From Aminobacter aganoensis (GTDB lineage Bacteria > Pseudomonadota > Alphaproteobacteria > Rhizobiales > Rhizobiaceae): a stretch of DNA of 64,000 bases. Positions 27,706 to 38,150 of this stretch are shown one piece after another; within the stretch, counting starts at the first letter, position 1, and every line of letters begins with the position of its first letter. The stretch lies in the NCBI RefSeq assembly GCF_014206975.1, contig NZ_JACHOU010000001.1:186001-250000 (forward strand). Direction: 5' to 3'. The notes beneath the pieces were generated by a model, which did no database searches, was not told the origin of the DNA, and saw only the letters and a list, made by a program, of their open reading frames with translations. The position numbers and the translations under genes were made by a program.

Positions 27706-27781
27706 GAGCGCGTAGCTCAGCCGGTAGAGCAACTGACTTTTAATCAGTAGGTCCAGGGTTCGAATCCCTGCGCGCTCACCA
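27706..27781 (+). tRNA. tRNA-Lys (anticodon TTT)
   Basis: A complete cloverleaf is visible. The 7-bp acceptor stem is GAGCGCG/CGCGCTC, the D arm GCTCAGCCGGTAGAGC and the anticodon arm ACTGA-CTTTTAA-TCAGT with TTT at 27739-27741. The T arm is CAGGGTTCGAATCCCTG, and ACCA is encoded at the 3' end. No integrase or repeat of the 3' end is seen downstream. Confidence 0.98.
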
Positions 27782-33503: not shown

Positions 33504-34235
33504 CTATTCGATGAAATCGGGCAGGCTCTGGAACGCCGCCTTCAGCGCATCCGACCAGCCTTCGGAAACGCTCCTGTAGTAGGGATCGTCGGCGCCGATC
33601 CGCCTTTTCAGGCCGATCTTGAGGCTGTCCTTTTCATAGAAGGCGAGATCGAGCGGCAAGCCGACCGAGAGATTGGATTTGAGCGTCGAATCGAACGACA
33701 CCATCAGGAGCTTCACCGTCTCGGCAAAGCTCATCTTGCGGTCGTAGGCGCGCACGATGATCGGCTTGCCGTATTTGGTCTCGCCGATCTGGAAGAACGG
33801 CGTGTCGTCGCTGCATTCGATGAAGTTGCCTTCCGGATAGATCATGAACAGCCTGGGTTCGCTGCCCTTGATCTGGCCGCCGAGGATGAACGAGGCGTTG
33901 AACGCCGAATCCGCCGTCTGCCCGGCAGGTGCCGACTGGGCGATCACCTCCTTGACCGTGTCGCCGACCAGCCGCGCGATCTGGAACATCGACGGCGCTT
34001 CGAGCAGCGTCGGGGCGCGATCGGCCACCGCCTTGGTCCGCTCGTCGAGCAGGCTGACCACGGCTTGTGTGGTGGCCAGGTTGCCGGCAGACATCAGCAC
34101 GACCACACGCTCGCCCGGCTGCTCCCAGATACGCATCTTGCGGAAGGTCGATATGCTGTCGACGCCCGCATTAGTGCGCGTGTCCGACATGAACACCAGT
34201 CCGCGATCAATCTTCAGGCCAACGCAATAAGTCAT
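33504..34235 (-). CDS. Anbu, proteasome-type peptidase
   Basis: A 243-residue protein of the Anbu (ancestral beta-subunit, also called bacterial proteasome homologue) group of Ntn hydrolases. Met removal would expose Thr2 as nucleophile (MTYCVGLKID). Asp18 (SDTRTNAG) and Lys33 (FRKMRIW) occupy the places of the proteasome Asp17/Lys33 pair. It is the last gene of the classic ATP-grasp / alpha-E / transglutaminase / Anbu cluster, whose substrate is not established. The ribosome site is weak. Confidence 0.92.
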   Translation of the reverse strand: MTYCVGLKIDRGLVFMSDTRTNAGVDSISTFRKMRIWEQPGERVVVLMSAGNLATTQAVVSLLDERTKAVADRAPTLLEAPSMFQIARLVGDTVKEVIAQSAPAGQTADSAFNASFILGGQIKGSEPRLFMIYPEGNFIECSDDTPFFQIGETKYGKPIIVRAYDRKMSFAETVKLLMVSFDSTLKSNLSVGLPLDLAFYEKDSLKIGLKRRIGADDPYYRSVSEGWSDALKAAFQSLPDFIE

Positions 34236-34261: not shown

Positions 34262-35056
34262 TTACTGCTCTACAGTGATGTGGACTGCAAGCCGTTCCTG
34301 CGCCTGGCCGATCAGGATGCCCGAAATCGGCATCGCCTCGCGATAGTCCCGCCCCACCGCGACGCGCACATAACGCTCGTCGGGCGAAATACCGTTGGCG
34401 GCATCGAAGCCGACCCAGCCGAGCCCGTCGACGAAGGCCTCCGCCCAGGCATGGCTCGCCACCTGCTCGACGGTGTCGTTCATCATCAGGTAGCCGCTGA
34501 CATAGCGCGCCGGGAAACCGGCGAGCCGGGCGCAGGCGGCAAACACATGCGCATGGTCCTGGCAGACGCCGGTACCCTTGTTCAGCGCCTGCTCGCCGGT
34601 GGTCTGCGTGTCGGTCGTGCCCGGCACATAGGCGATACGCATCTGGATCTCGGCCATCAGCCGGTGCAGCCGCTCCAGGTCGCCGCCCTCGCCCATGCCG
34701 GCGGCAAGCTGGCGGATCGACGCGCCCGGCGCCGTTAGCGGCGTCTCATGCTGGAAAAGCCACAGCGGCGCAAAACCGCGGTGCGGCCCGGACACGCCTG
34801 CCACATCGTTGGTGTCGACCTCGCCTTCGGCGACGACACGGATCGTATGCGGTTCGCCGTCGATGCTGAGCAGCCGTGTGTCGTTGCCGAACTGGTCGAG
34901 GAACCGCACCTCCTCGCGCGCGCCCTCGACGCGCACCGACCAGGTCAGCACGGTCTGCGCCGGCCCGCTGACCGGCCACAGCCGCAACCGCTGCAAGCCA
35001 TAGCGGATCGGCTCGTCGTAGTTGTATTCCGTGCGGTGGGTGACCTTGAGCCGCAT
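34262..35056 (-). CDS. Transglutaminase-like protein of the Anbu cluster
   Basis: A 264-residue protein with an N-terminal bacterial transglutaminase-associated beta domain (MRLKVTHRTEYNYDEPIRYG) and a papain-like core. The catalytic triad is visible as Cys165 (GTGVCQDHAH), His202 (VASHAWAEAF) and Asp218 (VGFDAANG). No signal peptide is present, so it is cytoplasmic like Anbu. It sits 12 bases after the alpha-E gene and 26 before Anbu. It may act as an amidase, protease or transferase; which is unknown. Confidence 0.92.
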   Translation of the reverse strand: MRLKVTHRTEYNYDEPIRYGLQRLRLWPVSGPAQTVLTWSVRVEGAREEVRFLDQFGNDTRLLSIDGEPHTIRVVAEGEVDTNDVAGVSGPHRGFAPLWLFQHETPLTAPGASIRQLAAGMGEGGDLERLHRLMAEIQMRIAYVPGTTDTQTTGEQALNKGTGVCQDHAHVFAACARLAGFPARYVSGYLMMNDTVEQVASHAWAEAFVDGLGWVGFDAANGISPDERYVRVAVGRDYREAMPISGILIGQAQERLAVHITVEQ

Positions 35057-35068
35057 TGGCGTGTCCGC

Positions 35069-36010
35069 TCAGTAGAAGCCGAAATCCTGGGCAACCTGGT
35101 CGCCCAGCCGGTTGTTGTCGGTGATGAAATCGGCCAGGAATTCGTGCAGGCCGGTTTCGAAGATGTCCTTGATCTCGGTGCCGCGCAGCCTGGCATAAAT
35201 CCGTTCTGCTATGTCCTGCGCCGGGTGGCGCGCGCCATAATCCTCGCCGAGAAATTTCAGATGCTCGGCCAGGAAACGATAGCTGAAAGTCAGTGAGCGC
35301 GGCATGCGCACGTTGAGGATCAGGTATTCGGCGATGTTGGTCGGCTTGTATTCCGCTTCATAGACCCAGCGGTACGACCGGTGCGCCGCCACCGAACGCA
35401 GGATCGATTCCCACTGGTAGTTGTCGAGCGACGAGCCCACCCACGAAACCGATGGCAGCAGAACGTAATATTTGACGTCGAGGATGCGCGCCGTGTTGTC
35501 GGCGCGCTCGACATAGGTGCCGAGCTGGGCGAAATCGAAGATCTCGTTGCGCAGCATCGTGCCGTAGAACGATCCGCGGATCAGCGCGGTTTCGCGCTTG
35601 ATGGCGTCGAGCACGCCGGGCAATTCGCGCTGGTCGATAGGCTGCGCCAGCATGCGCTTCAGCGACATCCAGGCTTCGTTGATGCTCTCCCAGGTTTCGC
35701 GCGTCAGCGCCGTGCGCACCATGCGGGCATTGTTGCGCGCCGTCTCGATCGCCGCCACAGCACTCGACGGGTTCGACATGTCGCGTAACAGGAAGTCGGC
35801 GACGTTCTCCGCCGTATAGTCGCTGTGCTTGGCGGCGAACGACGTAGCTGCTCCCGCCGACAGCAGCACCGACTTCCACTCCTCCGACGCGTCCTGGCTG
35901 CGGGTCAGCGCTATGCGCAACCCGGCATCGATCAGCCGCGCCATGTTCTCGGTCCGCTCGATATAGCGGTTCATCCAGTAGAGGCCGTTGGCGGTGCGTC
36001 CGAGGAGCAT
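35069..36010 (-). CDS. Alpha-E domain protein of the Anbu cluster
   Basis: A 313-residue, nearly all-helical protein (DUF403). Family hallmarks include the start MLLGRTANGLYWMNRYIERTEN and YVERADNTARILDVKYY in the middle. Such proteins always accompany the circularly permuted ATP-grasp and transglutaminase-like genes, and possibly form one peptide-ligating or modifying system. Normally the ATP-grasp gene is immediately upstream; here a repeat-flanked four-helix-bundle gene intervenes. Confidence 0.92.
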   Translation of the reverse strand: MLLGRTANGLYWMNRYIERTENMARLIDAGLRIALTRSQDASEEWKSVLLSAGAATSFAAKHSDYTAENVADFLLRDMSNPSSAVAAIETARNNARMVRTALTRETWESINEAWMSLKRMLAQPIDQRELPGVLDAIKRETALIRGSFYGTMLRNEIFDFAQLGTYVERADNTARILDVKYYVLLPSVSWVGSSLDNYQWESILRSVAAHRSYRWVYEAEYKPTNIAEYLILNVRMPRSLTFSYRFLAEHLKFLGEDYGARHPAQDIAERIYARLRGTEIKDIFETGLHEFLADFITDNNRLGDQVAQDFGFY

Positions 36011-36025
36011 GTCAGAGTGACCTGA

Positions 36026-36054
36026 GCGAATAGGGAATGGCGAATAGCGAATAG
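36026..36054 (+). repeat. Left GCGAATAG repeat block of the cassette
   Basis: Three copies of GCGAATAG lie at 36026-36033, 36040-36047 and 36047-36054; the last two overlap by one G, and a GGAATG spacer separates the first two. The 22-base unit at 36026-36047 matches the right block in reverse complement at 20 of 22 positions. Confidence 0.85.
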
Positions 36055-36064
36055 TGAGCGTTCA

Positions 36065-36436
36065 TCATGATTTTTGCTGCAGGCTCCTGATCATGGAACG
36101 CACCATCCTGCCTATTTCGTCAGTTTGTTCGAGCAACTTCGTAGCCTCGACTTCGCGCATCAATCCAACTCGGCCGCTCAAGATCAGATGTGTTTCCAAC
36201 TCTTTGAGCGAGCCTTGGGCCACCCTAAGAAACTGGACGAACGATCCTGTGCTCTCTCGACCATGTCCTTCCGCAATATTCGCTGCAATCGAGGTAGCGG
36301 ATCGCCTGATTTGCGAGGTCATCCCGTAAGCTTCGCTGGTCGGAAACGCCTTGGTGGCAGAATAGCAATCCACCGCCAGCTCAACCGACGCTCTCCAAAC
36401 AAGCAGATCCTTGTACGAGTTGATCGTCGCCAGCAT
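36065..36436 (-). CDS. Four-helix-bundle protein (23S rRNA intervening-sequence protein family)
   Basis: A 123-residue helical protein of the S23/IVP family (the same fold as Avd of diversity-generating retroelements). Typical segments are SYKDLLVWRASVELAVDCY, a middle SQIRRSATSIAANIAEG and GSFVQFLRVAQGSLKELETH. In Leptospira and Coxiella such proteins are encoded in sequences inserted in 23S rRNA; here it lies in a protein operon. The ATG at 36436 is preceded by AGGGGGAA from the flanking repeat, closer than usual for a ribosome site. Function is unknown. Confidence 0.88.
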   Translation of the reverse strand: MLATINSYKDLLVWRASVELAVDCYSATKAFPTSEAYGMTSQIRRSATSIAANIAEGHGRESTGSFVQFLRVAQGSLKELETHLILSGRVGLMREVEATKLLEQTDEIGRMVRSMIRSLQQKS

Positions 36437-36442
36437 TTCCCC

Positions 36443-36478
36443 CTATTCGCTACTCCCTATTCGCTATTCGCTATTCGC
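36443..36478 (-). repeat. Right GCGAATAG repeat block of the cassette (inverted)
   Basis: Four CTATTCGC copies lie at 36443-36450, 36457-36464, 36464-36471 and 36471-36478 on the plus strand, so GCGAATAG reads on the minus strand, opposite to the left block. The block ends five bases from the ATP-grasp stop codon. Confidence 0.85.
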
Positions 36479-36482
36479 TTCC

Positions 36483-37895
36483 TCAATCATCCAGCACCCA
36501 CGTATCCTTCGTTCCCCCGCCTTGAGAGGAGTTCACAACCAGCGATCCCTCCTTCAGCGCAACCCGCGTCAAACCGCCCGGCACGATGCGGATCCGGTCC
36601 GACACCAGCACGAACGGCCTGAGGTCGACATGGCGCGGCGCCAGCCCTTTTTCGGTCAGGATCGGGCAGGTCGACAGCGACAGCGTCGGCTGGGCGATGT
36701 AGTTCGACGGCCTGGCCGCGAGCTTCTTGGAAAAGTCCTCGCGTTCCTTCTTGCTCGCGGCCGGGCCGACCAGCATGCCGTAGCCGCCGGAGCCGTGCAC
36801 TTCCTTGACCACCAGTTCGGCAAGATGCTCCTGGACGTATTTCAGGCTGTCTGGCTCCGAGCAGCGCCAGGTGGGGATGTTGCCGAGGATCGGCTTGCGG
36901 CCGGTGTAGAACTCGATGATCTCGGGCATGTAGGAATAGATCGCCTTGTCGTCGGCGATGCCGGTGCCCGGCGCATTGGCAATGGTGATGTTGCCGGCAC
37001 GATAGACGTCCATGATGCCCGGCACGCCGAGCGCCGAATCCGGCTTGAAGGTCAGCGGATCGAGATAGGCGTCGTCGACCCGGCGATAAAGCACGTCGAT
37101 CTGCTTGTAGCCCTCGGTCGTGCGCATCGCCACGCGCCCGTCGACGACGCGCAGATCCTGCCCCTCGACAAGCTGCACGCCCATCTGGTCTGCCAGGAAA
37201 GCGTGCTCGAAATAGGCCGAGTTGAAGCTGCCCGGCGTCAGCACGGCGATCGTCGGCGCGCCGCTCACCCCGTTGGGCCGCACCGCGGCCAGCGACTGCC
37301 TGAGCAACTGCGGATAGTTCTCGACCGGGTGCACCTTGATGCGCTGGAACAGCTCGGGAAAGAGCTGCAGCATCGTCTCGCGGTTCTCCAGCATGTAGGA
37401 GACCCCCGACGGCGTGCGCGCATTGTCCTCGAGCACGTAGAACTCGTTCTCGGAGATGCGCACGATGTCGACGCCGATGATGTGGGTGTAGACGCCGGCC
37501 GGCGGCCTGACCCCGATCATCTCCGGCAGGAAGGCTTCGTTGGTGGCGATCAGTTCGCGCGGCACACGGCCTGCGCGCAGGATCTCCTGGCGGTGGTAGA
37601 TGTCGTCGAGGAAGGCGTTGAGCGCCTGGACGCGCTGTTCGATGCCCTGCGTCAGCCTGCGCCACTCATTGCCTGAAATGATCCGCGGCACGATGTCGAA
37701 CGGGATCAGCCGCTCGGAGGCTTCCTGCTCGCCATAGACGGCGAAGGTGATGCCGGTCTTGCGGAACACCCGCTCGGCATCGCGCATCTTCTCGGTCAGT
37801 CTTGCAGGGTCCTGGTTTTTCAGCCAGCCGTCATAGGCTTCGTAGGGTCTTCGCAAACCGGCTTCTGCCGGGAGCATTTCGTCGAAGGCGACCAA
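36483..37895 (-). CDS. Circularly permuted ATP-grasp type 2 protein of the Anbu cluster
   Basis: A protein of about 470 residues (DUF404/DUF407 type). Conserved segments include ERLIPFDIVPRIISGNEW, NEFYVLEDNARTPSGVSYM and YRRVDDAYLDPLTF, followed by NAPGTGIADDKAIYSYMPE, as in the permuted ATP-grasp ligase-like family linked to Anbu. TTG at 37895 is preferred: GAGGGGAG lies 7 bases upstream and the protein then begins VAFDEMLPAE as in relatives. An ATG 57 bases further upstream is the alternative. First gene of the cluster. Confidence 0.92.
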   Translation of the reverse strand: MVAFDEMLPAEAGLRRPYEAYDGWLKNQDPARLTEKMRDAERVFRKTGITFAVYGEQEASERLIPFDIVPRIISGNEWRRLTQGIEQRVQALNAFLDDIYHRQEILRAGRVPRELIATNEAFLPEMIGVRPPAGVYTHIIGVDIVRISENEFYVLEDNARTPSGVSYMLENRETMLQLFPELFQRIKVHPVENYPQLLRQSLAAVRPNGVSGAPTIAVLTPGSFNSAYFEHAFLADQMGVQLVEGQDLRVVDGRVAMRTTEGYKQIDVLYRRVDDAYLDPLTFKPDSALGVPGIMDVYRAGNITIANAPGTGIADDKAIYSYMPEIIEFYTGRKPILGNIPTWRCSEPDSLKYVQEHLAELVVKEVHGSGGYGMLVGPAASKKEREDFSKKLAARPSNYIAQPTLSLSTCPILTEKGLAPRHVDLRPFVLVSDRIRIVPGGLTRVALKEGSLVVNSSQGGGTKDTWVLDD

Positions 37896-38150
37896 TGGCA
37901 AACTCCCCTCTGCGATCAGTGAAATGACCTCGGGGGAGAAAATCAAGCGCAATCGCCGGTTTCAGGCGCAGCCGGCTTCATATTCGGGAGATTGCCCATC
38001 ATTTTGGCAAGATGCAGGGAATTTGGGCGCATCCCTGCCCGCTTGTGCGCCGTGCGCCCAATCGGACGCACAAAGAACGCTCTCGCGATTCAGTTTGCGC
38101 ATCGTGGCTTGCGGAAATCGATTCCGATTTGCGGGCCGCTGTGCGAGCGC

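Follow-up and report, generated by a model that had tools for sequence, protein, structure and literature searches.

The S23 gene and its setting

The locus raises the question of why a gene for a small four-helix-bundle protein lies, enclosed by inverted repeats, between two operon genes that are adjacent in several close relatives, and what kind of element the gene and its repeats form together. The ORF is a member of the S23/IVP family: it matches the Pfam profile PF05635 over positions 1–105 of 106 (E 7.9e-36; 123 bits against a cut-off of 33.8), and its relatives in the PDB are 2GSC (1.3e-21), which is XCC0516 of Xanthomonas campestris, and 2RLD (3.8e-6). The only other Pfam match of the protein is a sub-threshold one to bAvd (E 3.2e-4; 21.6 bits against a cut-off of 40), and an HUH tyrosine transposase domain is absent from it. 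A preliminary description had placed the gene between the stop codon of an ATP-grasp gene and the start of an alpha-E gene, a position borne out by Pfam matches for both neighbours (Table 1). The S23 ORF follows the ATP-grasp ORF by 46 nt, precedes the alpha-E ORF by 54 nt and lies on the same strand as the neighbouring operon genes, that is, sense to the host transcript. Its GC content is indeed low, as had been stated, at 0.532 against 0.639 for the window (the whole stretch of 64,000 nt that was analysed), with 0.5% of 372-nt windows equally low. With ATP-grasp and alpha-E genes as hosts and no rRNA match with Rfam in the window, the locus lies outside any 23S rRNA gene. Rfam detects a single feature in the window at its gathering threshold, a tRNA gene at 27706–27778 (+).

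Table 1. Features of the S23 locus and its host operon, in window coordinates. The proteasome-like gene, assigned to PF00227 by profile, is one that we take to be Anbu.
Feature	Position	Strand	Pfam family (E-value)
CP-ATP-grasp (circularly permuted ATP-grasp), upstream host gene, outside the cassette	36483–37952	−	PF14403 (5.9e-167)
5′ arm (coding strand): five tandem purine-rich heptads of GCGAATA type, right after the ATP-grasp stop codon	36443–36479	−	
S23/IVP-family four-helix-bundle gene, 123 aa	36065–36436	−	PF05635
3′ arm (coding strand): heptads complementary to the 5′ arm, right before alpha-E	36025–36057	−	
Alpha-E domain gene, downstream host gene, outside the cassette	35069–36010	−	PF04168 (1.4e-91)
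Transglutaminase-like gene, host operon	34262–35056	−	PF01841
Proteasome-like (Anbu) gene, host operon	33504–34235	−	PF00227 (2.7e-7)

Inverted heptad arms and the predicted stem

Three copies of GCGAATAG stand to the left of the gene and four of CTATTCGC to the right, in agreement with the inverted blocks originally reported. A heptad scan gives a repeat period of 7 at the locus, so these blocks are tandem heptads, and an account of them as copies of an octamer was dropped. The flanks form inverted arms of 33 nt with 85% complementarity (36025–36057 with 36447–36479) and of 23 nt with 91% complementarity (36025–36047 with 36443–36465), spanning 455 nt from arm to arm. The window contains 153 mechanical ORFs that start with ATG and reach 100 aa or more, the S23 ORF included; the flank-to-flank inverted score is 18 for S23 and at most 12 for the other 152. 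Chance and local low complexity are ruled out by these ORF flanks and by the control windows described below.

In the predicted fold of the operon RNA, the two blocks pair and enclose the gene (MFE −176.5, z −2.28; 0 of 100 shuffles as stable), as expected from the proposal that they are complementary in the mRNA and could form a single stem around it. The observation of a repeat-flanked S23 gene within an operon is confirmed, and the interpretation first given to it is, as a whole, partly supported. What did not survive is the treatment of the repeats as local: they belong to a genome-wide family, and the association of S23 with repeats spans phyla.

Filled and empty sites in the genus

Among ten same-genus genomes, the cassette occupies the ATP-grasp/alpha-E site in four (G000, G005, G008 and G009), and the site is empty in six (G001, G002, G003, G004, G006 and G007), with the start of alpha-E 17 to 19 nt beyond the stop codon of ATP-grasp. 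The two host genes, said to be normally adjacent, are so in these six genomes, which also supply the empty alleles whose absence had been named beforehand as evidence against an insertion. No target duplication is visible by eye between filled and empty sites, the junctions of which have diverged. The copy in G009 contains an in-frame stop; Ka/Ks is 0.05–0.11 when the S23 gene studied here is compared with the three others that occupy this site in the genus. A second S23 site, likewise with repeats, was found in G007 and G008 after a gene ending in ISPWEREYLLLNV. Two same-genus genomes, G002 and G006, contain no S23 gene and 60 and 24 matches, respectively, to the heptad type of our locus; these are possibly relics after loss of S23.

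S23 loci across the family

PF05635 was detected in 80 of 247 family genomes, representing 45 of 109 genera. The loci compared number 96 and comprise 94 of the 103 PF05635 rows together with two others (G005 and G007); the nine rows left out were eight whose matches were short, split or weak and one, G162:C40, at the end of a contig. With an inverted score of 13 as the threshold, arms were present at 81 of the 96 loci and at none of 96 control windows situated 500 nt away, with median scores of 20.5 and 8, respectively. The control windows for this set, and for the named and further sets below, lie 500–900 nt away and are assumed to be mostly coding. Similar repeats had been anticipated at S23-family genes elsewhere, and they recur both in this set and in 43 of 78 loci from a scan of named genomes.

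The repeats in these flanks are predominantly heptads. The best period was 7 in 44 left and 56 right flanks and 8 in 25 left and 23 right flanks, with periodicity below threshold in 27 and 17, respectively; among the controls, 1 of 192 passed, with period 6. Units include GAATAGC, GAATGGT, GCAGTAG and GCAGTCG, the octads GGCAGTAG and GGGAGTAG, and rarer ones. Array length (n = 166) was approximately four units in 68 cases and approximately five in 45. Of the S23 arms scored for polarity, within the family and elsewhere, 149 of 158 were purine-first.

Turning to the sites of insertion, which we name from neighbour motifs by eye and recall and which are thus presumptive, 44 of the 96 loci lie between nuoC and nuoD, 23 after a glutamine-synthetase-like (GlnS) gene, 22 at the ATP-grasp/alpha-E site, three at an acyl-CoA dehydrogenase-like/hydroxyisobutyrate-dehydrogenase-like site, and four elsewhere. 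A single fixed insertion site was rejected in view of these four recurrent sites and four loci elsewhere. We compared the match between the two arms of a locus with the match to arms from as many as 12 other loci at the same site, drawn at random. Medians for own and other loci were 18 and 8 at the nuoCD site (44 loci), 23 and 8 at the ATP-grasp site (22 loci), and 22 and 17 at the GlnS site (23 loci). Because a locus's own arms fit better than those of others at the same site, the unit is replaced in both arms together; such joint change may reflect selection on the stem or copying. Arm mismatches were of the G-U type in 64 cases versus 37 of the A-C type within the family (p 0.009), 45 versus 51 elsewhere, and 109 versus 88 overall (p 0.15), so that the counts as a whole do not establish selection for pairing at the RNA level.

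In the S23 tree, which rests on 105 columns and has many unsupported forks, sites cluster yet mix, with at least three forced changes for nuoCD. Four nuoCD genes with the unit CGAATAG group with 13 ATP-grasp-site genes (support 97/94), several of which also have this unit. The octads go with one group of 30 genes (support 100/95), four members of which have period 7, namely the three acyl-CoA-dehydrogenase-site genes and L152. Ka/Ks values of 0.04–0.19 in 16 pairs argue that the S23 protein is under purifying selection, despite a stop inside the domain in 4 of the 96 sampled copies.

Gene-less heptad pairs in the same genome

The genome that contains our locus has one S23 gene. CTATTCGCTATTCGCTATTC occurs within 3 mismatches at 120 places in it, and three CTAYTCN units give 141 exact matches; the reversed pattern gives 0 in each case. 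In 20 stretches picked from the matches listed for the heptad patterns, we counted at least 19 gene-less inverted heptad pairs and four single arrays, two of the latter lying inside long mechanical ORFs. The purine-rich arm comes first in all 19 pairs and the opposite order in none. Their loops measure 9–58 nt; for 13 of the pairs the stop codon of an adjacent ORF is no more than 20 nt away, and six sit between ORFs opening away from them. The loop of one gene-less pair (L362, 1281–1327) contains a GC-rich hairpin between runs of A and T that by eye resembles a bidirectional terminator.

Loop likeness among the 19 pairs reached 23 for L361 and L368 and 11 for the next best comparison, the best scores in 20 shuffles being 8–12. 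Comparison of the loops with the S23 gene gave a best score of 11, with shuffles reaching 12. Since the loops are unlike one another, with the exception of this one pair, and unlike S23, the gene-less elements of this genome are not simple deletion derivatives of the S23 cassette, and that origin was rejected. L361 (1216–1393) and L368 (1115–1208) match at 75% across 114 nt of loop and arm sequence. There was no clear blastn match between the flanks of the two elements, but global alignment of 200 nt of flank gave 0 on the left (shuffle maximum −2) and 14 on the right (shuffle maximum 2), so the flanks may be weakly alike. The likeness of loop and arms looks like that of one element copied.

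One gene-less site (L333–L342) was compared across the genus, with G006 left out as unreadable by the motif used. Heptad arms of our type are present in three same-genus genomes and decayed arms in one, and five genomes contain shorter arrays or remnants, apparently of another, partly octad, unit. No clean empty site for a gene-less element was therefore found at the one site compared, the relatives having arrays or remnants of other units, and the unit seems, from these sequences, to have been replaced in place.

Association of S23 with dispersed heptads

Across the family, a four-unit heptad pattern was matched in 63 of the 80 genomes with S23 and in 25 of the 167 without it (Fisher p 1e-22, treating as independent genomes that are in fact related), and the reversed control pattern in 10 of 247. 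At least ten matches occurred in 41 of 80 and 5 of 167 genomes, respectively; S23's own flanks are included in the counts, and requiring ten matches takes them out only in part. Of the 25 S23-less genomes with arrays, 11 belong to genera with a sampled S23 and 14 to genera without. Seventeen of the 80 S23 genomes lack the tested heptads, in part because octads, which several of the 17 carry, are invisible to the heptad pattern.

Unit-specific arrays were counted in 37 chosen genomes (28 S23, 9 S23-less). Arrays of GAATGGT occur in all seven genomes with a GAATGGT-unit S23, in 2 of 21 other S23 genomes and in none of nine S23-less genomes; among the matches listed, copies away from the S23 gene are present in at least five of the seven. 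CAGTMG arrays were found in 15 of 28 S23 genomes and none of nine S23-less genomes, with one match to the reversed control (G144), and GARTAG arrays in 22 of 28 and one of nine, the latter being G006 of the same genus.

S23 loci in other phyla

A phylum-wide draw contained S23 in 62 of 398 genomes. Arms were present at 35 of 61 further loci (five of six in the same family and 30 of 55 in others) versus none of 59 controls. The named-genome scan was represented by the best 80 of 583 relatives, 78 of which were testable: none of 68 controls had arms, and arms or a period-7/8 array were present at 64 of 78 loci versus 6 of 68 controls. One named locus, L286, is discounted, as its left flank shows every period from 4 to 12 and is probably a run of N. 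Named loci with arms include members of the Bacteroidota, Acidobacteriota, Chloroflexota, Planctomycetota, Verrucomicrobiota and Hydrogenedentota as well as Clostridia-type bacteria; all four loci from Nitrospirota were below the arm threshold.

Three loci from Xanthomonas arboricola, X. dyei and X. vasicola (L253–L255) encode S23 proteins 82–88% identical to XCC0516 and have arms of GGGAATC heptads. Their S23 gene sits, by eye, between accB-like and accC-like genes. The same heptamer is described in the text of PMC4692102 (Rehm 2015) at 186 places and in 70 inverted pairs in X. campestris, under the name of quadruplex repeats; GGGAATC in Xanthomonas and GGGGAYT in Nostoc are given there as dispersed and mostly intergenic, and heptads as over-represented in many bacteria. 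Word searches found no S23, four-helix or xcc0516 in the text of PMC4692102 and no S23 or four helix in that of PMC4679880. Of seven further loci on cyanobacterial plasmids, strong inverted arms are seen at two, the score is 12 at one and 7 to 9 at three, and in L377 the flanking heptads are direct rather than inverted. In two cyanobacterial plasmids, from Anabaena sp. 90 (L376) and Pseudanabaena galeata (L377), S23 has cas6 on one side and cas4 on the other. Finally, passages of PMC2700814 catalogue families of tandem heptanucleotides, four or five in a row, in Geobacter metallireducens and treat them as putative global regulatory elements or, as a guess, the sites of an unidentified global regulator; these families are possibly a further case of the same system. 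Titles and abstract openings in the open-access literature yielded no report that ties S23 genes to dispersed heptads, and the nearest precedent in print, as far as these sources extend, is the mention of heptameric repeats at the Coxiella IVS (PMC4990558).

Relation to 23S rRNA intervening sequences

A motif search placed 3 of 237 S23 loci inside 23S rRNA genes, and Rfam, applied to these three and to L214 among the 237, confirmed all three. Each of these intervening sequences (IVS) has inverted arms with a score of 21, and their heptads are degenerate, with 13 to 16 of 21 matches at lag 7 and at most 11 at other lags. One genome, G465, contains two 23S rRNA IVS with S23 and the same flanks (L232 and L243), and a separate S23 cassette, L214, that has another heptad and lies outside rRNA, apparently in a protein operon. 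In the relevant passages of PMC4990558, the Coxiella IVS is described as a 428-nt sequence with a terminal stem and an S23 ORF preceded by heptameric repeats, and as cut within its stem by RNase III on the basis of an in vitro assay and mapped ends; a solved relative of S23 is described there as a toroidal homopentamer (citing Lin 2006). The likeness to 23S rRNA IVS is accordingly stronger than had been claimed, with three IVS that have matching arms of degenerate heptads and heptameric repeats in that of Coxiella. As IVS with similar heptad arms exist in 23S rRNA, we regard the IVS of rRNA and the cassettes in operons as elements of a single kind.

Interpretation and alternatives

We consider it rather probable that the locus is a small mobile cassette of the IVS type, in which S23 occupies the loop of an inverted-heptad stem, resides in an operon and acts on heptads in trans. 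Comparison of sequences supports this reading through the anatomy of the loci, the empty sites, the changes of site, the co-occurrence with gene-less hairpins that often have the same unit, and the purifying selection on S23. The stem in the operon mRNA would be a substrate for RNase III, and the S23 message would be cut out, as in 23S rRNA; such excision would render the insertion nearly neutral and hence tolerated. S23, whose solved relative is a pentameric ring, may recognise heptad arrays, roughly one unit per subunit, and this recognition could maintain or spread both its own cassette and the gene-less hairpins, in the manner of RAYT with REP. We know of no catalytic site in S23, so the making of new copies would require either an RNA intermediate or enzymes of the host's replication or recombination machinery. 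Counted against this reading are the loci below the arm threshold (35 of 78 named loci, 15 of the 96 family loci and 26 of the 61 further ones, including all six of genome family f53), the 17 S23 genomes that lack the tested heptads and the 25 S23-less genomes that have them, the mismatch counts, which do not establish selection for RNA pairing, the matches to the reversed control pattern, the direct heptads of L377, the gene-less loops that, one pair apart, resemble neither each other nor S23, the arrays or remnants of another unit where a clean empty site was sought at the gene-less site compared, the want of a target duplication to the eye, and the strand of S23, which is that of both neighbours in 74 of 117 callable far and named loci. 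A broader proposal, which we hold tentatively and place somewhat short of an even chance, is that S23 is the trans-acting half of a pan-bacterial repeat system: rings that read heptads, sometimes octads or nonads, with units that co-diversify with the protein, would spread cassettes and gene-less hairpins in the intergenic regions of operons, and would be the source of the 23S IVS and of the heptamers of Xanthomonas, cyanobacteria and Geobacter.

Several of the same observations could be read as a post-transcriptional regulon, with S23 a host RNA-binding regulator, the hairpins its binding sites on mRNAs, its own flanks a means of autoregulation, and the likeness of the repeats kept by binding and not by copying. 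Strong purifying selection, the 13 of 19 gene-less pairs near a stop codon, the co-tracking of units with S23, arrays of mostly four to five units, close to the size of the pentamer described in PMC4990558, and the regulatory guess made in the text of PMC2700814 for Geobacter arrays all fit this account. It is nevertheless unlikely given the patchy presence of S23 (80 of 247 genomes) and the empty sites, its location in unrelated operons, the arrays kept in G002 and G006 in the absence of S23, and the six of 19 pairs that lie between ORFs opening away from them.

S23 might instead be a passenger, the hairpins arising through replication slippage and template switching at intergenic palindromes and serving as landing pads in which S23 tends to insert or survive. 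Both processes would keep the arms matched with no protein involved, which we count in favour of this account, as we do the unrelated loops in all but one pair, the 25 S23-less genomes with arrays and the general over-representation of heptads in many bacteria given in the text of PMC4692102. That 142 of 167 S23-less genomes have no tested array, that units co-track with the S23 lineage and with site change, and that slippage alone would not be expected to give purine-first polarity make it quite improbable. An ordinary transposable cassette, with S23 as cargo moved by a DDE or HUH transposase in trans, would account for inverted termini and gene-less relatives that resemble MITEs. It is hard to reconcile with the lack of a fixed terminal sequence, units varying freely by lineage while period and polarity are mostly constant, and with the lack of a target duplication by eye at the compared site, albeit with diverged junctions, and we regard it as very improbable.

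The finding on the IVS-type cassette is thus wider than first reported, with a fair chance that it represents a general, unrecognised repeat system. It joins two puzzles, namely the role of the S23/IVP protein together with the movement of IVS, and the origin of abundant heptamer repeats in bacteria. Should this link prove correct, both puzzles become directly accessible to experiment through a 14-kDa protein whose fold is solved, IVS are general insertions found in mRNA as well as rRNA, and hairpins with a possible part in cutting or stabilising messages are present in many operons. If true, the broader proposal also means that mobile elements can form a class in which no transposase is recognisable.

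Comparison with known systems

Avd of diversity-generating retroelements has a four-helix-bundle fold, which S23 shares along with a weak bAvd match that scores below the bAvd cut-off. In RAYT/REP systems, including BIMEs and REPINs, a gene is flanked by inverted repeats that match dispersed gene-less repeats of the same genome, and our locus is likewise flanked by inverted copies of genome-dispersed repeats. The two differ in that S23 lacks the HUH tyrosine transposase domain and in that REPs are fixed palindromes, whereas the repeats of S23 vary freely in sequence and consist of heptads or octads in tandem. The GGGAATC heptamers of Xanthomonas, as far as their published description goes, are similarly intergenic, dispersed and often in inverted pairs, and the same unit flanks S23 in L253–L255; PMC4692102 treats such heptamers as quadruplex-forming repeats in a text where S23 is not mentioned. 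The rRNA IVS of Leptospira and Coxiella resemble the locus in having an S23 ORF within a terminal inverted repeat or long stem, heptameric repeats and a similar size. Their host is rRNA, whereas the host here is an operon mRNA, for which excision by RNase III would follow by analogy, and our locus is further distinguished from the IVS by the gene-less heptad hairpins dispersed through its own genome.
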